Below, piece after piece: positions 17,201-28,736 of a stretch of 64,000 nucleotides of DNA (positions within the stretch are counted from its first letter, which is position 1; each line of letters opens with the position of its first letter). The translations under genes and the position numbers were made by a program. The notes under the pieces are model-generated. The model worked only from the letters and a program-made list of their open reading frames with translations. It searched no databases and was not told the DNA's origin. This DNA comes from Ferrimonas kyonanensis DSM 18153 (lineage in GTDB: Bacteria; Pseudomonadota; Gammaproteobacteria; Enterobacterales; Shewanellaceae), in assembly GCF_000425405.1 (NCBI RefSeq), contig NZ_AUDJ01000016.1, positions 62,001 to 126,000 of the forward strand. The letters run 5' to 3'.

Positions 17201-18339
17201 CAGTAAGGTATCGGATTGATCGTTTGTTTGACGGCCGGCAGATGCTGGCTGACCGGGTGCTGACCGTTGCCGACGGGCGGGTGGTGGCCGTGGATCAGCA
17301 GTGTCAGCATGCCGATCTGCACCTGGCGGGCATCGTTGCGCCAGGGTTGGTGGATCTGCAGGTCAATGGTGGTGGTGGAGTGCTGCTCAATGACTGCCCC
17401 GAGCCGGCCGCCATGGCGCGTCTGTTTCAGGCACACACCGGCCTGGGCACCACCTCGATGCTGCCGACGGTGATCACCGATTCGGTGGCGGTGATGACTG
17501 CCGCCGCCGACGCGGTCGCCGAGGCCCGTCGCCACAACCCTCATGGCATCATCGGCATTCACTTCGAAGGCCCGCACATTGCTGCTGCCAAGAAGGGGGC
17601 CCATTGCGGTGAGCAGATTCGACCGTTGTCCGAGGCCGAATGGCAGCTGTATCAGCGCGACGATCTTGGGGTCAAGCTGGTGACTCTGGCACCGGAGACG
17701 GTGAGCTGTGCCGAGATTCAGACTCTGACGGCCATGGGCGTCCGGGTGTTTTTGGGGCACTCCAATGCCAGCGCCGATCAGGCGCAGCAAGCCCTGAAAG
17801 CCGGGGCCGTTGGCTTTACCCACCTGTTCAATGCCATGTCGGCGTTTGGTTCCCGCGAACCGGGCATGGTCGGGGCGGCGCTGCTCGATGACAGCAGCGT
17901 GGCCGGTTTGATCGCCGATGGTCAGCATCTGGACTATCGTTCCGCCCGGGTGGCGCTGCGCTGCAAAGGGGCGGACAACATCGCCCTGGTAACCGATGCC
18001 ATGCCATTGGTGGGCAGTGACCTGCAGCGGTTTACCCTGGTGGATCGGGAGGTGCATCGACAGGGGGATCGTCTGCTGGCTCACAGCGGTGAGCTGGCGG
18101 GATCGCTGTTGGACATGGGGGCCGCGGTACGCAATGCGGTGTTGCACCTGGGCGTCAGCCTGGAGCAGGCACTGCGGATGGCCAGTGCGGTGCCGGCGCG
18201 GGCCTTGGGGCTGGAGGCCGTCTATGGTCACCTGCGCCCCGGTGCCGTTGCCAACCTGGTGTGGTTGTCGCCTCAGCTTGACGTTCAGGGCACCTGGGTG
18301 GCTGGCCAGAGACAGGACGTTGAGACGTTACCCCAGTAA
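17197..18339 (+). CDS. nagA: N-acetylglucosamine-6-phosphate deacetylase
   Basis: This 380-aa amidohydrolase deacetylates GlcNAc-6-P to glucosamine-6-P. Metal and substrate motifs are visible: PGLVDLQVNGGGG, HFEGPHI, the metal His in FLGHSNASADQ, THLFNAMSAFGSREPG, and the catalytic Asp in LVTDAMP. The length matches E. coli NagA (382). AAGGAGGTGCT precedes the ATG, which overlaps the nagZ stop by ATGA, so the two are translationally coupled. No nagB, nagK or PTS gene is adjacent. Its 3' end overlaps the convergent kinase/phosphatase gene by 12 bp. Confidence 0.95.
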   Translation: MTVRYRIDRLFDGRQMLADRVLTVADGRVVAVDQQCQHADLHLAGIVAPGLVDLQVNGGGGVLLNDCPEPAAMARLFQAHTGLGTTSMLPTVITDSVAVMTAAADAVAEARRHNPHGIIGIHFEGPHIAAAKKGAHCGEQIRPLSEAEWQLYQRDDLGVKLVTLAPETVSCAEIQTLTAMGVRVFLGHSNASADQAQQALKAGAVGFTHLFNAMSAFGSREPGMVGAALLDDSSVAGLIADGQHLDYRSARVALRCKGADNIALVTDAMPLVGSDLQRFTLVDREVHRQGDRLLAHSGELAGSLLDMGAAVRNAVLHLGVSLEQALRMASAVPARALGLEAVYGHLRPGAVANLVWLSPQLDVQGTWVAGQRQDVETLPQ

Positions 18340-20022
18340 CCACTGGGCGATCAGGGCGGCCATCAGCACCGCACTGATGCCCTGCCAGAACCGCACCGGG
18401 TGACGCTTAGCCAGGGGCAGGCTGGGCTCGTTGGCATCGCTTCGCGGGTGGCGCAACCGCTGCTGCAATTCTGATAATGAGCTCAGTCGTCGCTTGGGGT
18501 CGGCGGCGGTGGCCTGTTGCAACAGTTGGTCCAGCCACAGCGGCTGGTTGGGCTGCCACTGCCTGAGACTGCGGTAGCGCCAATCACTGAAGCGCTTTCG
18601 TTGACCCGGACGTTTATTGGCGTACGGCCGTTGCCCGCACAACAATTCGTACAGGATGATCCCCAGAGAGAACAGATCGCTGCGGTTGTCAGCAGGTTGC
18701 TCCAGCTGGGTTTCCGGGGCGCTGTAATCCACGGTGCCCACGGCCTGAGACAACTGCTGCCAACCGGGCAATTCCTGCAGGGAGCCGGCGCCAACGCTGC
18801 CGAAATCAATCAGCTTGATGTGGCCATCGGCGTCGATCATGATGTTGTCCGGTTTCAGGTCCCGGTGCACCATCTGTTGCCGCTGCAGGGCGCGCAGTCC
18901 GGCGACGATCCCGTCCACCACCGGTCGCAACTGTTGAATCTCCGGAGTGGGGTGATCCTGGTGCCATTGCGACAGCGTCTGACCGTCGATGTACTCGCAG
19001 ATCAGGTACAGGAAGCGGCTGTTGTGATTCAGGCGGGTGGTCATGAGGTTGGGGTGGCTCAGGCACTGACCGACCCAGGCTTCACGGGCCAAAGCCGCCA
19101 GTTGGCTGTGGTGGTCTTCCAGGTTGGGGGACGGGGCCTTGAGAACCCACAGGCCGCCTTGCTGCCGATCCCGAACCAGGTACAGGTGAGAGCGGGGGCT
19201 GGCATGCAGGCAGCGCACTACCTGATAATGATCCAGGCTCTGGCCAGCGGCCAGGACCGGCGGTATGGCCAGGTGTTGCCACTGTTGCAGTAACTGCTGT
19301 GGCTGATCGCCGGGACACTGCTGCACCTCGATGATCAGGCAGCTGATGTTGTCACGACTGCCTTGTTGCTGTGCCAGCCTGACTAATCGTTGAGCGCTGG
19401 TCTCGAGATCCTCTTGGCGCGACAATTCGGCCTTTATCTGCTTTGGCCGAAGGTGATCGTGGAAGCCGTCGGAACTGAGCACGAAGCGATCCCCGGCCTG
19501 CAGCCGCAGTTCATGGGTATCGACCCGCAAGTGGGGGTCGGCCCCCAGTGCCCGGGTCAGTACCCGGCCATTATTGTGGCTGGCGGTCAGCACCTGCCAC
19601 TGTCCGTCACGGATCAGCGCCACCTGGCTGTCACCGACCTGGTACAGGTAGCCCTGATTGCCTTTAAGCACCAGGGCGGAAAAGGTGGTCAACCATTGTT
19701 GCTGGCCGAGACCGCAATGACACAACCAGTGGTTGAGGGCGGCCAACAGCTTCGAGGCGCGGCGGTGAGTGCTCCAGCTGGCCGGGGTGGCGTAGAAGTC
19801 CTGCACAAAATTGGTGACGCTGAGGACTGCGGCCGGACCGCCATGGCTGGCATTGGAGACCCCATCGGCCAAGGCCGCCGCCCAACCGTGATGCTCGGTT
19901 TCTCGGGCGCCGGGGCGCGCCAGGGCAAAGGCGTCCTGGTTGCCGGATTTGGCGCCGGCAGCCGAGTGGCCACCGAACGCCAGGGATAACCGGGTCTGAC
20001 CGGTGACAGGGTTAGCCGACAC
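18328..20022 (-). CDS. PP2C phosphatase-Ser/Thr kinase fusion, tail-anchored, in nitrate assimilation operon
   Basis: This 564-aa protein has an N-terminal PP2C-type phosphatase domain (about 10-235: NQD Asp30, ADG Asp53, SSDG Asp185, RDN Asp224), a Hanks-type kinase domain (about 264-525: Lys295, HRDLKPDN with Asp388, DFG at 406-408, APE at 435-437) and a C-terminal membrane helix (544-563). The kinase glycine loop is degenerate ([13 protein letters not shown]), but the catalytic residues are intact. It starts within the end of the nitrate transporter gene (11-bp overlap). A similar gene sits next to nitrate assimilation genes in Pseudomonas, to my recollection. The likely role is reversible phosphorylation of a nitrate-uptake or reduction component; the target is unknown. 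Confidence 0.9.
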
Positions 20023-21481
20023 GGATCAACTCCACGCTGCCGTCTTCACGAATCTCGGTGATCTGACCCCGGGGTTCCTCCATCAGCAGCAGGGCCAGCA
20101 AGCCCACCACGGCCGTGGCGGCGATGACCCAGAAAAACGTGGCGTAATCCACCATCGACAGCACGGTCAGGTAGACCACGGCACCGACGTTGCCGTAGGC
20201 CCCGGTCATGCCGGCTATCTGGCCGGTGAGGCGGCGTTTGATCAGTGGCACGGCGGCAAATACCGCCCCCTCTCCGGCCTGGACGAAGAAGGAACAGGCC
20301 ATGGCGGCGACGACGGCCAACAGCAGCGGCCAACTGGCGTCGATCTGGGCCATCAATGCGTACCCCAGGGCCAGACCCGTTGTCAGTATGATCAGGGTCC
20401 GCTTGCGGCCAAAGCGGTCGCTGAGCCAGCCGCCGCCGGGGCGGGAGGCCAGGTTCATAAAGGCGTAGGCCGAGGCCAGCATGCCGGCGTACACCATATC
20501 CAGCTCAAACACCTCGGCAAAGAACAACGGCAGCATCGAGACGACCGCCAGTTCGGAGCCGAAGGTGGCGAAATAGAGCACGTTCAGTACCGCCACCTGC
20601 TTGAATTTGTACCGGTGCTCCGCGGCCACCGGCGCTCGAAAGACTCCCTTGTTGACCCGATAGGCCTGCACCACCTCCAGAACAAACAGTAGCCCAAGCG
20701 TGCCATACAGGCCGTAAACCAGAGGCTGACTCAGCAGCTTGACCCCGGCAGGGGAGAGCTTCCAAGTTAACAGGGCCAGGGCGGCGTACATCGGCAGCTT
20801 CATCAGCAGCAACAGGGCGAAATCGCCTTTGCTGGTGACCTCCATGGCGCCGCTCTGTTTGGGTTTGAAGTAGGTTGAGCCCTTGGGAGTATCGTTAACG
20901 TTCTGGTACCAGATGACGCTGAACAGCAGGCTGAGGGCACCGGTTACCGCCACGGCGTAGCGCCAGCCGTCGTCACCACCGAACCACAGCGCCAGCAGCG
21001 GCAGAGTCATGGCGCCCGCGGCGGAGCCGAAGTTGCCCCAGCCGCCGTAGATCCCTTCGGCAGTGCCCAGCTCATGGGCGGGAAACCACTCGCTGACCAT
21101 GCGGATGCCCACCACAAACCCGGCGCCGATGAAGCCAAGCAGGAATCGCGACAGGGCGGCGGTAGCAAAGTCGTCGGCAAAGGCGAACATAAAACAGGGC
21201 AGGCTGCACAGTGCCAGCAAGGCGGCGTAGGTCAGCCTGGGACCGTAGCGGTCGGTGAGCATGCCAATCACCACCCTGGCCGGAATGGTCAGGGCCACGT
21301 TGAGGATCAGCAGGGTCTTCACCTGAGCACCACTGAGACCGAGGGAGTCGGCGATCACGCCCAGGAGTGGTGCGTGGTTGAACCAGACGAAGAAGGTGAT
21401 GAAAAAGGCCATCCAGCTGAGGTGGAGGATTTTCATCTTGCCGGTAAACGAAAGCAGCTTAATGCCGTCATGGGTTTGCAT
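20012..21481 (-). CDS. NarK/NasA-type nitrate/nitrite MFS transporter
   Basis: This 489-aa major facilitator protein has about 12 membrane helices and the nitrate/nitrite porter family features: [19 protein letters not shown] near the N-terminus, [14 protein letters not shown] (loop 2-3 motif), [18 protein letters not shown] (first nitrate signature) and a second glycine-rich stretch [11 protein letters not shown]. It would import nitrate for the reductases encoded beside it. A short hydrophilic insertion and a C-terminal cytosolic tail ([15 protein letters not shown]) are present. AAAGGAG precedes the ATG, 28 bp after nirD. The gene order ties it to assimilation rather than respiration. Confidence 0.93.
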
Positions 21482-21509: not shown

Positions 21510-21842
21510 TCAGTGGCGCAGCTGCACCTTGCCGTCCACCGTACGCACCGGATAAGTGGGCACCGATACAGTGTCGTCCTGCAGGCAGCGTCCGCTGCTG
21601 AGGCAGTAGTGGTGGCGATATAGGGGGGAGCTGACGGTCAGGGTGCCGTCCACCTCTGCCAGCAGTCCGCGAGACATGACGTTGGCTTTGCCGAGGGGAT
21701 CGTGGTTGCCGATGGCGTACAGTTCGCCATTGGCCAGGTAGAAGATGGCCACCTGTTTGTTGTCCAGCAGGGCACAGACGCCGCTGTCAGGGCTGAGGTC
21801 GTCGAGGGCGCAGATCTCCTGCCAGTGGGATGAAGTACTCAT
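21510..21842 (-). CDS. nirD: Assimilatory nitrite reductase small subunit
   Basis: This 110-aa Rieske-fold protein is the small subunit of NADH-dependent nitrite reductase. The NirD pattern AIGNHDPLGKANVMSRGLL and SSPLYRHHYCLSSGRCL is recognisable. As in E. coli NirD, the two Cys-X-His pairs that bind a Rieske cluster are not both present, so it likely carries no cluster. It overlaps the nirB stop by ATGA. Confidence 0.95.
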   Translation of the reverse strand: MSTSSHWQEICALDDLSPDSGVCALLDNKQVAIFYLANGELYAIGNHDPLGKANVMSRGLLAEVDGTLTVSSPLYRHHYCLSSGRCLQDDTVSVPTYPVRTVDGKVQLRH

Positions 21843-24355
21843 GCCAACTCCTTGATGTCGATGGGGGCGGGACGGATCTGACCGCGCTCTTCGGTAAAGC
21901 GCACGCCGTCGTCACCGCGTTTGCTGTTGATGAAATGTTGAAACTGCTTCAGGCGTTTGGGGTCATCCAGGGTGGTTTTCCATTCACATTGATAGCGATC
22001 CACCAGCGCCTGCATCTGTCGTTCCAGCTCGGCATTGAGTCCCAGGCTGTCGTCGATGACCACCTGTTTGAGGTAGTCGAGACCGCCGTCGAGGCTCTCC
22101 AGCCATACCGAGGTGCGCTGCAGGCGTTCGGCGGTGCGAACGTAGAACATCATGATGCGATCGATGTAGGTGATCAGGGTGGCGTCATCGAGATCGGTGG
22201 CAAACAGGTCGGCGTGACGGGGGCGCATGCCGCCGTTGCCACCGACATACAGGTTCCAGCCCTTGTCGGTGGCGATGACGCCGTAATCTTTACTCTGGGC
22301 TTCGGCGCATTCGCGGGCACAACCGGACACCGCCAGCTTGATTTTGTGGGGGGAGCGGATGCCTCGGTAACGGTGCTCAATGCGGATCGCCATGGCGGTG
22401 GAGTCTTGAACGCCGTAGCGACACCAGGTGCTGCCGACACAGGATTTGACTGTCCGCATCGCCTTGCCGTAGGCGTGGCCGGTTTCAAAACCGGCGTCCA
22501 CCAGCCGGCGCCAGATGGCTGGCAGTTGTTCCATGCGGGCACCGAACAGATCGATGCGTTGACCGCCGGTGATCTTGGTATACAGGCCATACTCTTTGGC
22601 CACCTGGCCGAGGACGATCAGCTTGTCGGCGGTGATCTCGCCGCCGGGAACCCGAGGGACCACCGAGTAGGTGCCGTCTTTTTGCATGTTGGCCAGGAAG
22701 CGGTCGTTGGTGTCCTGCAGGCCAACATGGGCGTCGTCGAGGATGTAATCGTTCCACAGCGAGGCCAGCATTGAGGCCACTGCCGGTCGGCAGATTTCGC
22801 AGCCACGGCCCTGACCACACTGGGTCAACAGGGCGTCAAAGGTTCTGATCTCTCGCACTCGCAGGATGTCGAACAGTTCGGTACGCGAGTAAGGGAAGTG
22901 GTCGCACAGGCTATGGTCGACGGTCAGGCCCTGTTGCTCCAGCCGGTTATCCAGCAGTTGCCCCACCAGTTGGCCACAGCCGCCGCAGCCGGTGCCGGCC
23001 TTGGTGCAACTCTTAAGGCTGGCCAGGTCACAGGCGCCGGCATCAATGGCCTCGATGAGATCGGCCTTACTGACGTCGTGGCAGGAGCAGATCTGGGCCG
23101 AGTCTGGCAGGGCTTCCACCCCGGACCCGGCCGTGCCGCCCTGCTCCTGCAGCGGCAACAACAGCGATTCAGGAGGCTGCGGCAGTGGCATCTGGTTCAG
23201 GCACAGCTGCAGCCAGTTGCCGTAGTCGCTGGCATCCCCCACCAAGACCGCCCCCAGCAGTTTGGTGCCGCTGTCGTCGACGACGATCTTTTTGTACAGG
23301 CCGTTGGCGTGGTCGCTGAAACAGTAGCTGAGGGCGCCGGGGCTACTGCCGTGGGCGTCGCCGATGCTGGCGACGTCGACGCCCAGCAGCTTCAGCTTGG
23401 TGCTCATGTCGGCGCCGCTGAAGGCGGCTTGCTGGCCTTGAATGGTGGCGGCCGCCACCTTGGCCATCTGGTAGCCCGGCGCCACCAGGCCAAAAATGCG
23501 TTGCTGCCACAAGGCGCATTCGCCGATGGCGTAGACGTTGGCGTCTGAAGTCTGACACCGGTCGTTGATGACGATGCCGCCGCGGTCGCCGATCTGCAAC
23601 TGGCCCTGGCGGGCCAGCTGATCCTGAGGCCGAATGCCGGCGGAGAACACCACCATATCGGTATCCAGGCTGCTGCCGTCGGCAAAGCTCAGCCGGTAGC
23701 GGCAGGGGCCGTCCGGGGTGGCGTCGATGCTTTGGGTGGCTTTGTCGGTGTGTACCGTCAATCCCAGTTGCTCGATCTTTTGTCGCAACAAGGTCCCACC
23801 GCCGTTGTCCAGTTGCACCGCCATCAGTCGCGGGGCGAACTCGACCACGTGGGTTTGCAGGCCCAGGGTATTCAGGGCATTGGCGGCTTCCAGTCCGAGC
23901 AGGCCGCCGCCGATGACCACGCCGACCCGACTGTCGGAGGCGGAGTGTTGAATCGCCTGCAGATCCTCGATGGTCCGGTAGGGGTGGATGTGCGCTTGGT
24001 CCCGCCCCGGAATGGGCGGCACAAAGGGGTAGGAGCCGGTGGCCAGCACCAAGGTATGGTACGCGTATTGCTGCCCGTCGCTGCAGGTCAGCGTCTGTTC
24101 GGTGGTGTCGATGCTGAGCACTCGGGTCGACAGGTGGCTGATTACCCCTTGCTGCTGGTAGTCCTTTGGGTGGGCCAGGGCCAGGTCATCGGCGTTGCCG
24201 CTGTCAAAGTAGCGGGTCAGCTGTACCCGGTCGTAGGCCAGTCGAGGCTCTTCGGCAAACACCAGCAACTCAAAGTCGCTGCAGCCAGCCATCTCTTCGA
24301 TAAAGCGGTGGCCAACCATTCCGTTGCCGACAACCGCAATTATGGGTTTGGTCAT
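21839..24355 (-). CDS. nirB: Assimilatory nitrite reductase large subunit
   Basis: This 838-aa NAD(P)H-nitrite reductase makes six-electron reduction of nitrite to ammonium in the cytosol. It has an N-terminal FAD/NADH oxidoreductase domain (IAVVGNGMVGHRFIEE; GVVIGGGLLGLEAANAL), a BFD-like [2Fe-2S] domain (CSCHDVSKADLIEAI...CTKAGTGCGGC, about 420-470), and siroheme/[4Fe-4S] sulfite-nitrite reductase domains (GSTWCRYG; AVSGCARECAEA with the cluster cysteines). ATG 24355 has AAGGAGAGAGTC upstream and lies 10 bp after the cobA stop. Length matches E. coli NirB (847). Confidence 0.97.
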   Translation of the reverse strand: MTKPIIAVVGNGMVGHRFIEEMAGCSDFELLVFAEEPRLAYDRVQLTRYFDSGNADDLALAHPKDYQQQGVISHLSTRVLSIDTTEQTLTCSDGQQYAYHTLVLATGSYPFVPPIPGRDQAHIHPYRTIEDLQAIQHSASDSRVGVVIGGGLLGLEAANALNTLGLQTHVVEFAPRLMAVQLDNGGGTLLRQKIEQLGLTVHTDKATQSIDATPDGPCRYRLSFADGSSLDTDMVVFSAGIRPQDQLARQGQLQIGDRGGIVINDRCQTSDANVYAIGECALWQQRIFGLVAPGYQMAKVAAATIQGQQAAFSGADMSTKLKLLGVDVASIGDAHGSSPGALSYCFSDHANGLYKKIVVDDSGTKLLGAVLVGDASDYGNWLQLCLNQMPLPQPPESLLLPLQEQGGTAGSGVEALPDSAQICSCHDVSKADLIEAIDAGACDLASLKSCTKAGTGCGGCGQLVGQLLDNRLEQQGLTVDHSLCDHFPYSRTELFDILRVREIRTFDALLTQCGQGRGCEICRPAVASMLASLWNDYILDDAHVGLQDTNDRFLANMQKDGTYSVVPRVPGGEITADKLIVLGQVAKEYGLYTKITGGQRIDLFGARMEQLPAIWRRLVDAGFETGHAYGKAMRTVKSCVGSTWCRYGVQDSTAMAIRIEHRYRGIRSPHKIKLAVSGCARECAEAQSKDYGVIATDKGWNLYVGGNGGMRPRHADLFATDLDDATLITYIDRIMMFYVRTAERLQRTSVWLESLDGGLDYLKQVVIDDSLGLNAELERQMQALVDRYQCEWKTTLDDPKRLKQFQHFINSKRGDDGVRFTEERGQIRPAPIDIKELA

Positions 24356-24365
24356 GACTCTCTCC

Positions 24366-25151
24366 TTAAGCAATCGCTTGTTGGCTTTGAGGGGGCTGCT
24401 GCCACCAACTTAGGGAGTCGGCCAGGCGGACTACCTCGCCAACGTAGATCAGGGTGGGGCTGCGCAGGTGGTGGCGCAGTGCGTCAGTGGCCATCTGTTT
24501 CAACGAGGTGATGACCACCCGTTGTTCGGGGCGACAGCCGTTTTCCACCAGCGCCACCGGCGTGGCGTCGCTCATGCCATGCAGGCTCAGTTGGTGGCGG
24601 ATGTGAGGCAGTTGGTTCAGGCCCATGTAGAACACCAGGGTCTGGTTGCCTTTGGCCAGGGCGGCCCAGTCCAGTTGCAGCTGGGTATTGGCCTGGCCGG
24701 TGATCAGGGTGCAACTCTGGGACAGACCCCGATGGGTAAGGGGAATGCCGGCGTAGCTGCCACAACCGCTGGCGGCGGTGATGCCGGGGATCACTTCGGC
24801 GACAATGCCCGCCTGGTGCAGGGCCAGTAACTCTTCGCTGCCACGACCAAACACAAAAGGGTCACCGCCCTTGAGGCGCACGATCCGATGACCCTGGCGG
24901 GCCAGTGCCACCATGCGTTGATTCAGCCGTGACTGGGGCAAAGCATGGTTGTGGCGTTTTTTGCCCACGTAGATGGCGCTGGCACTGTCGGGAAAGCGCG
25001 CCCGAATGGCCTCGCTGACCAGGTTGTCATACAGGATCACATCGGCGTGCTGAATGCGGTCCATTGCTTTGAGGGTAAGCAACTCCGGATCGCCGGGGCC
25101 AGCGCCAATCAGGGAGACCTGATAGGGAACAGAATCGGACGGGGTTCGCAT
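24366..25151 (-). CDS. cobA: Uroporphyrinogen-III C-methyltransferase
   Basis: This 261-aa SAM-dependent enzyme converts uroporphyrinogen III to precorrin-2, the first step toward the siroheme needed by NirB. Motifs are VSLIGAGPGDPELLTLKA, YDNLVSEAIR and RLKGGDPFVFGRGSEE. It is the single-domain SumT form, without the CysG dehydrogenase/ferrochelatase part, which must be encoded elsewhere. The ATG at 25151 (AGGAGAT upstream) is preferred over upstream frames because a sigma-54 promoter lies at 25193-25208. It leads the cobA-nirBD-transporter-kinase operon. Confidence 0.95.
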   Translation of the reverse strand: MRTPSDSVPYQVSLIGAGPGDPELLTLKAMDRIQHADVILYDNLVSEAIRARFPDSASAIYVGKKRHNHALPQSRLNQRMVALARQGHRIVRLKGGDPFVFGRGSEELLALHQAGIVAEVIPGITAASGCGSYAGIPLTHRGLSQSCTLITGQANTQLQLDWAALAKGNQTLVFYMGLNQLPHIRHQLSLHGMSDATPVALVENGCRPEQRVVITSLKQMATDALRHHLRSPTLIYVGEVVRLADSLSWWQQPPQSQQAIA

Positions 25152-25192
25152 TGTGGCGATCTCCTGCTGAAAAGAAACGGTATTCAGACAGG

Positions 25193-25208
25193 GGCAAGAG
25201 CGGTGCCA
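25193..25208 (-). promoter_or_regulatory. Sigma-54 promoter of the cobA-nirBD operon
   Basis: On the minus strand TGGCACCGCTCTTGCC matches the -24/-12 consensus TGGCACG-N4-TTGCA at nearly every position with the invariant GG/GC spacing. Transcription would begin near 25182, giving a 30-nt leader before cobA. Confidence 0.75.
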
Positions 25209-25219
25209 CAACGTGATAA

Positions 25220-25258
25220 CTTCTGTTTATTGGCGCTTATATTGTTAATAAACAGAAG
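25220..25258. repeat. 12-bp perfect inverted repeat upstream of cobA promoter
   Basis: CTTCTGTTTATT and AATAAACAGAAG face each other across 15 bp. The repeat lies about 40-75 bp upstream of the predicted cobA start point and outside both predicted transcripts, so an operator for a dimeric regulator is more likely than an RNA hairpin. I do not recognise the motif. Confidence 0.7.
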
Positions 25259-25317
25259 GTTGAGTTTGGTTTGGTTTTTTTGGGGCTTGTGGGGGGAGCC
25301 GCAATTCTCCCTCATAA

Positions 25318-25355
25318 TGCACCGTTATGAGGCAGAGCTGCACTAAAGGTGGGAC
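25318..25355. promoter_or_regulatory. Tandem NtrC-like enhancer sites
   Basis: TGCACC-N5-GAGGCA (25318-25334) matches the NtrC consensus TGCACC-N5-GGTGCA at 10 of 12 positions. A weaker site, TGCACT-N5-TGGGAC (25339-25355), lies exactly 21 bp, two helical turns, further on. They sit about 120-160 bp from both predicted sigma-54 start points. Confidence 0.5.
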
Positions 25356-25407
25356 ATTATTCATTTGAAGCGAGTGCTCATTCGGTTCTGGTTGGAATTT
25401 TAAAATT

Positions 25408-25420
25408 TAAACAATTGATT
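25408..25420 (-). promoter_or_regulatory. IHF binding-site consensus
   Basis: On the minus strand AATCAATTGTTTA fits WATCAANNNNTTR perfectly. It lies between the NtrC-like sites and the nasA sigma-54 promoter, the usual place for IHF bending. Confidence 0.5.
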
Positions 25421-25449
25421 TAATGCAATAAATTATTAATTCGCACCCT

Positions 25450-25465
25450 TGGCCTCAGTGTTGCA
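25450..25465 (+). promoter_or_regulatory. Sigma-54 promoter of nasA
   Basis: TGGCCTCAGTGTTGCA keeps the -24 TGGC and the -12 TTGCA with correct spacing. The start point would be near 25476, 33 nt before the nasA ATG. Confidence 0.65.
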
Positions 25466-25508
25466 ATAGTCAGGCAATCCCATACCGACGCCCACACAGG
25501 AGAGCCCG

Positions 25509-28154
25509 ATGACTGAGACCCGAACCACCTGCCCGTACTGCGGCGTTGGCTGCGGCGTGCTAGCCAGCGTCAACGGTGATCAGGTGCAGATCCGTGGTGA
25601 CCAGTACCACCCGTCCAACCAGGGACTGCTGTGCTCAAAGGGGTTGCGGCTGGCGGATACGCTCGGTGAACGGGGACGACTGCTGTACCCGAGCATCGGC
25701 GGCCAGCGTGACAGTTGGTCCCGTACTTTGGCCTATGTGGGGCACAAGTTTCGCCAGGCAGTAGAGCAGCATGGGCCGGATTCGGTGGCGTTCTACCTGT
25801 CCGGACAGCTATTGACCGAGGACTATTATGTGGCCAACAAGCTGATGAAGGGGTTCATCGGCAGTGCCAACGTCGACACCAACTCCCGGCTGTGCATGTC
25901 GTCGGCGGTGACGGCCCATAAGCGCGGCTTGGGCAGCGACAGTGTACCGGGGTGCTACCAGGATTTTGAGCTGGCGGACCTGGTGGTGCTGGTGGGCTCC
26001 AATATGAACTGGTGTCATCCGGTGCTGTTTCAGAGGCTGCAGGCGGCGCGCCGAGCCAGACCCCACATGCGCCTGGTGGTGATTGACCCGAGGCGTACTG
26101 CCACCGCAGAAGCCGCCGATCTGCACCTGGCCATTCGTCCCGGCGGCGACTTGGCGCTGTTTCATGGTTTGCTGCGATTCCTGATTGAGCAGGGATTGCA
26201 GCGCCCGAATGCCCAGCAACTGTCGGGATGGCGCGATACTCAGGTGTCGTTACAGGCCTATGATCTGGACCGGGTTGCCGGTGAGACCGACCTGGATCGC
26301 GATGACATTATCGATTTTTATCAACAGTTCGCCGCTAACCCCCGTGTCGTTACCGGATTTTCCATGGGGATCAATCAATCCGAGCAGGGGGTGGATCAGG
26401 GCAATGCCATCCTTAACTGCCACCTGCTGACCGACCGCATCGGTCGTCCTGGTATGGGGCCGTTCTCCCTTACCGGCCAGCCAAACGCCATGGGCGGGCG
26501 CGAAGTGGGTGGGTTGGCCAACACCCTGGCGGCCCACCGGGAATTGGACGACGAGGTGGCTCGACAGGCCATCGGTGAGATCTGGCGTAGCCCACGGATG
26601 GCGTCTCGACCGGGGTTGAAGGCGGTGGAGTTGTTTGAGGCGATGGAGCGGGGCGAGATTAAGGCACTGTGGATTATGGGCACCAATCCGGCGGTCAGTC
26701 TGCCGGACAGCGGCCTGGTGGCCAGGGCACTTGAGGCCTGCCCTCTGGTGGTGGTCAGCGACTGCATCGTCGGTACCGATACTCAGCGCCATGCCGATGT
26801 GCTGTTGCCGGCCACCGGCTGGGGGGAGAAGGCCGGTACCGTGACCAATTCGGAGCGGCGCCTGTCGAGGCAGCGGGCGTTCATGCCTCCTAGCGGCGAG
26901 GCGCGGCCGGACTGGTGGATGCTGTGCCAGGTGGCCAAGGCCATGGGGTTCAATCATGGGTTTAATTTCGCCAATGAAGCGGACATCTTTCGCGAACATG
27001 CCAGCTTGTCGGCGATAAACGGGCGACTCGGCGGTGAGTTTGATATTGGGGCTCTGGCGACGCTGACCGACGAGCAATACCAGCAGTTGCCGCCGTTGCA
27101 GTGGCCTCAGCCCGCGGGCCAGCCGTTGCGACTGAACAACCAGCGCCTGTTTGCCAGTGAGCCCGAAGGCCCGCCGCGGGGGCAACTGCAGCTGTCGTCG
27201 TCAGCCACATCACCGGCAGCCCCGGGCTGGGTGCTCAACAATGGCCGGTACCGCGACCAGTGGCACACCATGACCCGCAGCGGGTTGTCGCCGCAGTTGG
27301 GCCGTCATCGCCCCTGGCCCGAGGTGGCTCTGCACCCCGAAGATGCCCGCCTGCTGGGCGTGACCGCCAATGATCTGTTAACCCTGCAGGCTGGGGAAGG
27401 CGAGCTGCTGCTGCCGGTGGCGCTGTCGGAACAGCAGCGCCGGGGAGAGTTGTTTGCCCCCATTCACTGGAGTGGCCAATTCAGTGGCCAGGCCACGGTG
27501 AATGCGGTGGTGGGGCGGGGGCGGGATCCGCTGTCGGGTCAACCCGGCTTTAAGGGGGCCAGGGTGCAGGCCCGGCCGTGTGCCGTCAGGGCGTGGGCAC
27601 AACTGTGGCTGCCAGAGCCGGTGGCGATGCCGGCTGGAGTGGCGGTGTTTTGGTCCAGCCAGACTCACCCTCAAGGAGGGGGGTATTTGCTGGCCAGTGA
27701 GTTGCCGGTGTCAGACTGCGTGGAGCGGCTGCAACAATGGCTGGCGACGCTGGGGCATGGGCAGCCCAGCGTTTGCCAGGTGTCGGCCGAAGGCAACAGG
27801 CAGTTATTTGTCAAAGGAGGACGATTGTTGGCCGCCATGTTTGTGTCTCCCCAGCGTCGGCATTTACCTGGGGATTACCTGTTGCAGGCGTTACAATCGC
27901 CTGTCACTGCCACACAACAGAGATCCCTATTGATGACCCCGACCACCGAATCGCGCTTGCTGTGTTGCTGCTTGCAACTGACGGAAGCGGACGTTGATGC
28001 CGCCATTGCCGAAGGGGCCGACAGTGCCGACAAGGTGGCCGACGCCTGTGGCGCGGGCACCGGCTGTGGCTCCTGCCGCAGCGAAGTGATGGAGCGATGC
28101 CGACATGCAAAGCATGAATCAGAGAGTGAGGTTCAAAACGCTTTAGTCGATTAA
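25509..28154 (+). CDS. nasA: Assimilatory nitrate reductase catalytic subunit
   Basis: This 881-aa cytoplasmic molybdoenzyme reduces nitrate to nitrite. It has the N-terminal [4Fe-4S] motif CPYCGVGCGVL with a later LLCSKG cysteine (residues 8-45), the bis-MGD molybdopterin oxidoreductase core (SRLCMSSAV; IMGTNPAVSLPD; GWGEKAGTVTNSERR), a dinucleotide-binding domain (about 580-700), and a C-terminal BFD-like [2Fe-2S] domain (LLCCCLQLTEADVDAAI...GAGTGCGSC, about 830-870). No twin-arginine signal is present, which fits assimilation. No nasB reductase gene is adjacent. Siroheme and nitrite steps are encoded divergently; a sigma-54 promoter precedes it. Confidence 0.95.
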   Translation: MTETRTTCPYCGVGCGVLASVNGDQVQIRGDQYHPSNQGLLCSKGLRLADTLGERGRLLYPSIGGQRDSWSRTLAYVGHKFRQAVEQHGPDSVAFYLSGQLLTEDYYVANKLMKGFIGSANVDTNSRLCMSSAVTAHKRGLGSDSVPGCYQDFELADLVVLVGSNMNWCHPVLFQRLQAARRARPHMRLVVIDPRRTATAEAADLHLAIRPGGDLALFHGLLRFLIEQGLQRPNAQQLSGWRDTQVSLQAYDLDRVAGETDLDRDDIIDFYQQFAANPRVVTGFSMGINQSEQGVDQGNAILNCHLLTDRIGRPGMGPFSLTGQPNAMGGREVGGLANTLAAHRELDDEVARQAIGEIWRSPRMASRPGLKAVELFEAMERGEIKALWIMGTNPAVSLPDSGLVARALEACPLVVVSDCIVGTDTQRHADVLLPATGWGEKAGTVTNSERRLSRQRAFMPPSGEARPDWWMLCQVAKAMGFNHGFNFANEADIFREHASLSAINGRLGGEFDIGALATLTDEQYQQLPPLQWPQPAGQPLRLNNQRLFASEPEGPPRGQLQLSSSATSPAAPGWVLNNGRYRDQWHTMTRSGLSPQLGRHRPWPEVALHPEDARLLGVTANDLLTLQAGEGELLLPVALSEQQRRGELFAPIHWSGQFSGQATVNAVVGRGRDPLSGQPGFKGARVQARPCAVRAWAQLWLPEPVAMPAGVAVFWSSQTHPQGGGYLLASELPVSDCVERLQQWLATLGHGQPSVCQVSAEGNRQLFVKGGRLLAAMFVSPQRRHLPGDYLLQALQSPVTATQQRSLLMTPTTESRLLCCCLQLTEADVDAAIAEGADSADKVADACGAGTGCGSCRSEVMERCRHAKHESESEVQNALVD

Positions 28155-28253: not shown

Positions 28254-28736
28254 ATGACCACCACTAATTTGATTGGACTGAACCGAAATGGCGCCGAGGA
28301 CCTGGCTGCGCAATTGAATGACCTGTTGGCAAACTATCAGGTGCTGTACATGAATGTACGGGGTTTCCACTGGAACATTAAAGGCGCCGATTTCTTTGAG
28401 CTGCACACCAAGTTTGAAGAGATCTACAACGTGCTGCTGGAGAAGGTGGATGAGATTGCCGAGCGGGTATTGACCCTGGGCCAACAGCCATTGCACGCCT
28501 TTTCCGATTACCTGCAGCTCAGCCAGATTCAGCAGGCCATTAACATCTCAAGTGGAGCCGAAGGCATCGACTCCCTGCTGGAAGGCTATCAGGTGTTGAT
28601 TGCCAAACAGCGCCAGATTCTCAATGCCGCCGGTGAGCTGGGTGACGAAGGTACCTCGGCCCTGATGAGCGATTATCTGTCTCAGCAGGAAAAAGAGAGC
28701 TGGATGCTGGCGGCCTACCGGGGTCGTGGCGCCTGA
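28254..28736 (+). CDS. dps: Dps ferritin-like DNA-protection protein
   Basis: This 160-aa mini-ferritin forms dodecamers that oxidise Fe(II) with peroxide and shield DNA in stationary phase. The ferroxidase site across the subunit interface is visible in FHWNIKGADFFELHTKFEEIY (His, Asp and Glu ligands). A C-terminal helix with SQQEKESWMLAAYRG is typical. The N-terminus is short with few Lys, so DNA binding through a Lys tail is unlikely. AGGACACTGAT precedes the ATG. It is a single gene with a probable sigma-S promoter and a strong terminator. Confidence 0.96.
   Translation: MTTTNLIGLNRNGAEDLAAQLNDLLANYQVLYMNVRGFHWNIKGADFFELHTKFEEIYNVLLEKVDEIAERVLTLGQQPLHAFSDYLQLSQIQQAINISSGAEGIDSLLEGYQVLIAKQRQILNAAGELGDEGTSALMSDYLSQQEKESWMLAAYRGRGA

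Follow-up and report, generated by a model that had tools for sequence, protein, structure and literature searches.

Gene content and layout of the cobA/nasA region

The window, that is, the whole 64,000-nucleotide stretch of DNA analyzed here, belongs to a genome of 4.93 Mb in 40 contigs. Within it, a gap of 357 bp separates the cobA ATG (25151, minus strand) from the nasA ATG (25509, plus strand). The minus-strand run of cobA, nirB, nirD, a narK-type gene and a gene for a kinase/phosphatase fusion is tightly packed: cobA and nirB lie 10 bp apart, nirD and narK 28 bp apart, and the genes overlap at the remaining junctions (Table 1). These five genes probably form one operon and would be transcribed as a unit. 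The 881-aa product of the plus-strand gene combines a molybdopterin core with a BFD-like domain at the C-terminus. Among NCBIfam models, formate dehydrogenase alpha scored best for this product, at 407 bits (cut-off 666), followed by NasC at 364 bits (cut-off 1100); since all such models fell below their cut-offs, the name nasA rests on the domains and on the neighboring nirBD, narK and cobA genes.

Table 1. Genes and predicted control elements at the cobA/nasA gap, with positions in the window.
Feature	Sequence	Position	Strand	Match
PP2C-like phosphatase/Ser-Thr kinase fusion, final gene of the cobA run		18328..20022	-	Pfam PP2C_2 and Pkinase, above cut-offs
narK-type nitrate/nitrite transporter		20012..21481	-	TIGR00886, 327 bits (cut-off 312)
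nirD, nitrite reductase small subunit		21510..21842	-	TIGR02378, 118 bits (cut-off 75)
nirB, nitrite reductase large subunit		21839..24355	-	TIGR02374, 1094 bits (cut-off 578)
cobA, uroporphyrinogen-III C-methyltransferase (siroheme)		24366..25151	-	TIGR01469, 290 bits (cut-off 185)
Predicted sigma-54 -24/-12 element of cobA-nirB-nirD-narK-kinase	TGGCACCGCTCTTGCC	25193..25208	-	10/11 consensus positions
IHF-like site, cobA arm	AAACAGAAGGTTG	25250..25262	+	7/9, weak alone
NtrC-like site 1	TGCACCGTTATGAGGCA	25318..25334		10/12 consensus positions
NtrC-like site 2	TGCACTAAAGGTGGGAC	25339..25355		7/12, exactly 21 bp past site 1
IHF consensus site, nasA arm	AATCAATTGTTTA	25408..25420	-	9/9
Predicted sigma-54 -24/-12 element of nasA	TGGCCTCAGTGTTGCA	25450..25465	+	9/11 consensus positions
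nasA, assimilatory nitrate reductase catalytic subunit, C-terminal BFD-like domain		25509..28154	+	Pfam Molybdopterin, Molydop_binding, Molybdop_Fe4S4, Fer2_BFD

Relatives of the PP2C-like phosphatase/kinase are also encoded at nas loci in Photobacterium, Shewanella, Aestuariicella, Microbulbifer and several alphaproteobacteria. The gene after nasA, at 28254-28736, is Dps/ferritin-like, and one of this kind likewise adjoins nasA in the loci L090, L092 and L093. A search of the intergenic region against its own genome returned no other match at E <= 0.001, by which a repeated-element reading was ruled out.

Paired sigma-54 elements and their conservation

The sigma-54, NtrC-like and IHF sequences that the original prediction placed in this gap are all found where it put them. 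It had described the two promoters as facing each other, which is wrong: both sigma-54 elements read outwards, back to back, and the promoters would be divergent. Its positions for the elements were right, and its gaps of 42 and 44 bp to the start codons were off by one, with 41 nt between the cobA-side element TGGCACCGCTCTTGCC and the cobA ATG and 43 nt between the nasA-side element TGGCCTCAGTGTTGCA and the nasA ATG. The pattern sought was GG and GC 10 bp apart within TGGCAC-N5-TTGCW, a short distance 5' of a gene; both elements have this spacing at these distances and are thus candidate sigma-54 promoters, from which transcription would start near 25182 and 25476.

The strict pattern occurred once in the 64-kb window (0.23 expected), a count reached by 22 of 100 shuffles, and the relaxed pattern three times (2.4 expected). 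Over both strands of the genome, strict TGGCAC-N5-TTGC was found 18 times as against 4 for a reversed control pattern. Because the frequencies in the window are close to chance, motif matches in a single genome prove little beyond placement. The case for paired sigma-54 elements is carried instead by comparison with relatives, and it is this comparison that decides for them as predicted promoters.

NasA relatives were taken as the best 80 loci from named genomes and the best 30 loci from 152 genomes of the family, giving 110 loci (L009-L118), with divergence judged only where the contig also carries cobA. Among these best 110 loci, cobA diverges from nasA in 22, of which 21 are distinct; L095 duplicates L016, being identical between the promoters, and was left out of the NarP, placement, shuffle and pair-spacing counts. 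All 22 have an outward element of at least 9/11 on both sides. The cobA-side element scores 10-11/11 at 32-144 nt from the estimated start, and the nasA-side element 9-10/11 at 39-94 nt. Both sides reached 9/11 or better by chance in 1 of 4200 dinucleotide shuffles of the 21 loci. The original prediction had proposed the GG and GC pairs of close relatives as a check, and both pairs are kept in 22/22 divergent loci among the best 110. Two further loci, L102 and L104, closely resemble L101 and L103; they were left out of the placement and pair-spacing tests, which covered 19 loci, and kept in the NarP/NarQ count. Within the window's genus, NasA of at least 52 percent identity is encoded in 6 of 14 genomes, and the rest gave distant molybdoenzyme matches only. 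In 13 other loci of the family (L106-L118), a cobA-like gene lies downstream of, and co-directional with, a more distant NasA-like gene.

The nas operon of Klebsiella is controlled by NasR antitermination. Control of the NasR or NasT type in the window's genus, or transcription from sigma-70 promoters, with the sigma-54 elements surviving as relics, appears very improbable, even though NasT-type control is known for other nas operons from the available portions of PMC3795266 and PMC5424462. The predicted leaders are only ~30 nt long, and in 24800-25800 every Rfam family stayed below its gathering score, the one match (E 0.84) by a wide margin; both the shortage of space and the lack of an Rfam match speak against an antitermination leader. 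Sigma-70 promoters were rejected on a consensus scan of 25100-25560, which found no sigma-70-type site against 0.5 expected. The retention of both elements throughout the divergent loci among the best 110 argues against relics. An ANTAR search of 17 genomes gave no matches, and with its controls equally silent this result is uninformative.

NtrC-like sites and the encoded regulators

The NtrC consensus is TGCACC-N5-GGTGCA, with sites usually in tandem and 100-160 bp upstream. A good NtrC-like site followed by a weaker one exactly 21 bp further on had been claimed for the gap, and the two are present at 10/12 and 7/12. Their distance is suitable and their placement conserved, and matches of such quality are at chance level in the 64-kb window: with up to two mismatches the NtrC pattern was found 4 times (6.7 expected), no more commonly than by chance. 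The same search across the genome gave 381 places, compared with 62 for a reversed control.

Placement relative to the cobA element is the more telling property. A TGCACC-bearing NtrC-like site lies 109-121 bp from that element in 6/6 loci of the window's genus, and an NtrC-like site lies 116-121 bp from it in nine Shewanella loci compared; in L016, a slightly better match lies at 138 bp. In L091 and L094, another NtrC-like match elsewhere scores as well as or better than the one at the conserved position. Placement was scored in 40 comparisons against circular shifts, a control that does not remove shared ancestry, with z values of 5.6 for the genus (6 loci) and 12.5 for Shewanella (9 loci) and 0/300 shifts as good in either group. 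For four loci outside Shewanella and the genus, placement was not significant from the cobA side (108/300 shifts as good), and from the nasA side it was matched by 12/300 shifts. The enhancer spacing, which the original prediction had also proposed to follow through relatives, is therefore kept from the cobA element in the genus and in Shewanella and not significantly so in the four other loci.

The TGCACC half alone is firmly kept across the window's genus, where the other half-site is degenerate throughout. A second site of 7-9/12 follows at 21 bp in L089, L090, L092 and L093 and at 22 bp in L091 and L094. It is also found at 21 bp in L016, L096, L057 and L079, with most other Shewanella loci reaching 5-7/12 there. 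The mean score for pairs 21 bp apart in the genus, 15.7, exceeded all 200 mononucleotide shuffles (largest 13.5). A spacing of 13 bp scored higher than 21 bp, which in our judgement reflects a palindromic motif overlapping itself. Since each site of the genus pairs a good half with a degenerate one, NtrC is best described as the putative activator.

The TGCACC half-site of the window is also the center of a perfect 8-bp inverted repeat, CCTCATAA-TGCACCG-TTATGAGG (25310..25332). This repeat, together with the degenerate second half-site across the genus, could point to a regulator other than NtrC that binds the TGCACC elements, for instance by recognizing the CCTCATAA-N7-TTATGAGG repeat. We regard such a regulator as improbable: arms of at least 8 bp arose in 55/1000 shuffles, and comparison by eye shows the repeat preserved in part in L090, the closest relative, and not preserved in the remaining loci of the genus. 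At the corresponding position, most Shewanella loci carry more complete CGCAC(C)-N5-GTGCA sites, and NtrC is encoded.

NtrC scores above its family cut-off in 14/14 genomes of the window's genus. The window's own genome encodes RpoN (TIGR02395, 532 bits, cut-off 277) and an IHF-alpha (ihfA) above cut-off. It also carries NtrC sites of 12/12 at ntrB and 11/12 at glnA, the latter with a sigma-54 element as well (genes recognized by eye). Next to these, the nas enhancer is weak by local standards and may need high NtrC~P. The reading of the gap as an NtrC- and IHF-assisted sigma-54 region is supported by the conserved pairs, by the presence of RpoN, NtrC and IHF-alpha, and by the strong sites at glnA and ntrB. 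Elsewhere in the genome, a perfect 12/12 NtrC palindrome lies at L149:3466-3482 (G000:C18:17465-17481), just past a 351-aa frame, and no sigma-54 element of at least 9/11 was found within that stretch.

A possible shared enhancer for two arms

Most compact loci of the genus and of Shewanella have one main NtrC-like cluster, at a workable distance from both sigma-54 elements. The widest gaps among the compared loci are those of L057 (399 bp) and L079 (371 bp), and these two have two NtrC-like clusters, one 129-139 bp from cobA (8/12) and another 117-155 bp from nasA (10/12). The pattern looks as though every promoter required an enhancer that far away, a single one being shared in the compact form. 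The same two loci, in which each arm seems to have its own cluster, could be taken to mean that both promoters are of the sigma-54 type but that the central site serves a single arm, the other using a separate site or a different enhancer-binding protein. Candidates for such a protein are plentiful, as the genome encodes dozens of sigma-54 activator relatives (59 NtrC-model matches among the 59 scored of 71 candidates). We nevertheless consider this arrangement unlikely, given the single main cluster of most compact loci; moreover, simple inspection of the genus loci recognized no other conserved activator-like site. A single enhancer would then drive both arms.

IHF sites and inverted repeats

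The perfect IHF consensus claimed for the nasA arm is there, at 9/9. In the 64-kb window the pattern occurs twice (0.7 expected), a count reached by 20/100 shuffles. Loci of the genus repeatedly show an IHF-like match ~199 bp from the cobA element (z 4.7, 0/300 circular shifts as good), which places the nasA-arm site at a steady distance from the enhancer. When placement was measured from the nasA element, no clear signal was seen in the genus (29/300 shifts as good).

The cobA arm has a weaker candidate that the original prediction did not include. Over the 19 loci tested, an IHF-like match lies ~39 bp from the cobA element (z 10.8, 0/300 shifts as good; Shewanella alone, z 6.3). With offsets of 36-45 bp inspected, a match of 7-8/9 is found at 39-43 bp in 18/21 distinct loci, a score that 3-29 percent of all windows in a locus equal. 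The exceptions are L013 and L093, which have none, and L021, which has one at 37 bp. In the genus alone, this site is not the best-placed IHF match. A predicted IHF site, weak on the cobA arm, therefore lies between enhancer and promoter on both arms, as in an IHF-assisted sigma-54 layout, and IHF may act on each. Counting the weak candidate, the order across the gap can be read as sigma54 / IHF / NtrC-NtrC / IHF / sigma54.

The cobA-arm candidate is overlapped by a perfect 12-bp inverted repeat with a 15-nt spacer (25220..25258), situated between the cobA promoter and the enhancer. None of 1000 local shuffles produced one as long. A consensus scan picked out this repeat on the plus strand as its single terminator-like hit (0.5 expected). 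Relative to either predicted start point, its position is upstream. The other distinct loci have no inverted repeat with arms of at least 9 bp, except that L094 has a perfect but unrelated 14-bp repeat at about this location. Neither the 12-bp repeat nor the 8-bp repeat around TGCACC had been part of the original prediction, which likewise did not mention a NarP-type site found in many relatives from outside the genus.

A NarP-type site in relatives

The NarP/NarL 7-2-7 consensus is TACYNMT-N2-AKNRGTA. Its best match in the window's control region, 8/12, is within the shuffled range. Of the 15 distinct loci outside the genus, 10 have a site of 11-12/12 between the enhancer and the nasA promoter, 73-85 bp upstream of the nasA element; these belong to eight Shewanella and two Photobacterium genomes (L097, L098, L100-L105, L013 and L021). 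All ten genomes encode a NarQ 36-47 percent identical to that of E. coli over nearly its full length. The five other distinct loci outside the genus, from genomes without a full-length NarQ match, score 9-10/12, and L057, at 10/12, was counted as lacking the site. Thus, outside the genus, the site is present in 10/10 genomes with a full-length NarQ match and in 0/5 without one, for which the Fisher value of 0.0003 overstates the evidence because the genomes are related. In the window's genus, the site is found in 0/6 loci and NarQP is kept in 5/6.

Two of the five relatives counted as lacking NarQ (L016, from S. surugensis, and L096) come with a partial NarQ-like match in a frame of 626-634 aa (E 7e-41 and 4e-39) and with a NarP/NarL-like regulator (47-48 percent). 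In S. surugensis, as judged by eye, this regulator is encoded close to nasA, next to molybdenum-cofactor-like genes and a second transporter. We judged these matches to be NarX/NarL-like rather than NarQP and left them uncounted. A strict form of the 7-2-7 pattern (TACYCMT-N2-AKGRGTA) occurs once in the window's own genome, outside the window, with 0 matches to a reversed control; the genes adjoining it could not be linked to nitrate by eye.

Proposed mechanism

We conclude that nasA and cobA-nirB-nirD-narK-kinase are probably driven by an NtrC/IHF-dependent divergent pair of sigma-54 promoters with an NtrC enhancer that both would share. Under nitrogen limitation, phosphorylated NtrC would activate both promoters from weak sites in tandem, spaced by two helical turns, in the middle of the gap. 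IHF would bend each arm, at a strong site on the nasA side and a weaker one on the cobA side, and these bends could bring a single bound NtrC oligomer into contact with sigma-54 polymerase on either side. As a result, nasA, for the reduction of nitrate to nitrite, would be switched on jointly with the cobA run, which would supply siroheme, the reduction of nitrite to ammonium, nitrate uptake and a regulatory kinase/phosphatase. This suggests a nitrogen-limitation promoter for the kinase/phosphatase fusion at the end of the nirBD run.

More tentatively, and with somewhat less than even confidence, we propose that the gap represents a bidirectional enhancer, with a central NtrC tandem and a dedicated IHF bend per arm serving both halves of assimilation, to which nitrate sensing is added as an evolutionarily optional module. 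If so, nitrate-specific control would act on one arm, atop the shared nitrogen control.

Comparison with known systems

In the nas operons of Klebsiella, Azotobacter and Paracoccus, NtrC exerts nitrogen control over the genes for assimilatory nitrate and nitrite reductases. Nitrate specificity in these systems comes from leader antitermination, for which the leaders predicted here are too short. The glnA-ntrBC region of the same genome resembles the nas region in having a sigma-54 element and an NtrC palindrome (11/12) upstream of glnA, but it is not a divergent pair and its NtrC sites are stronger. The hyc/hyp genes for hydrogenase-3 of E. coli are reportedly transcribed from divergent sigma-54 promoters. 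As in the nas region, two outward sigma-54 promoters would there share one gap and coordinate a single pathway, with the difference that the activator is FhlA. For Salmonella, the hycA and hypA sigma-54 elements are listed in the accessible part of PMC3844500.

The available portions of PMC3897727 describe the divergent orp1/orp2 operons of Desulfovibrio vulgaris, whose sigma-54 promoters have a common cognate enhancer-binding protein. IHF sites lie between the sigma-54 and activator sites, and IHF was required in an E. coli reconstruction; the loss of one IHF-alpha was without effect in D. vulgaris itself. The likeness to the nas region lies in the divergent sigma-54 pair, the activator common to both promoters and the IHF sites between promoter and activator sites, a mechanism that we infer here. 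Unlike in the nas region, the orp activator is DVU2106, itself served by a sigma-70 promoter within the region, and the genes are unrelated (PMC3897727, same portions). A description of the cobA/nasA control region was not found in the literature covered, largely outside subscription journals, nor in the accessible text of PMC1274295 and PMC12316311. The available part of a study of Shewanella regulons (PMC3223726) lists NtrC and NarP regulons, and its main text is without any 'nas' word; RegPrecise may list Shewanella NtrC and NarP sites.

The region is a small natural example of two promoters that seem to be served by one sigma-54 enhancer, and enhancer sharing, IHF bending and promoter competition could be studied in it within ~270 bp. 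The difference between lineages in the NarP-type site further provides a comparison for how, where no antitermination leader is used, a nitrate signal may be added to one for nitrogen starvation. With good support from these comparisons, the region is best seen not as a new mechanism but as an addition to a known kind of arrangement, the divergent sigma-54 pair with a common activator and IHF arms, predicted here in a form that varies in evolution.
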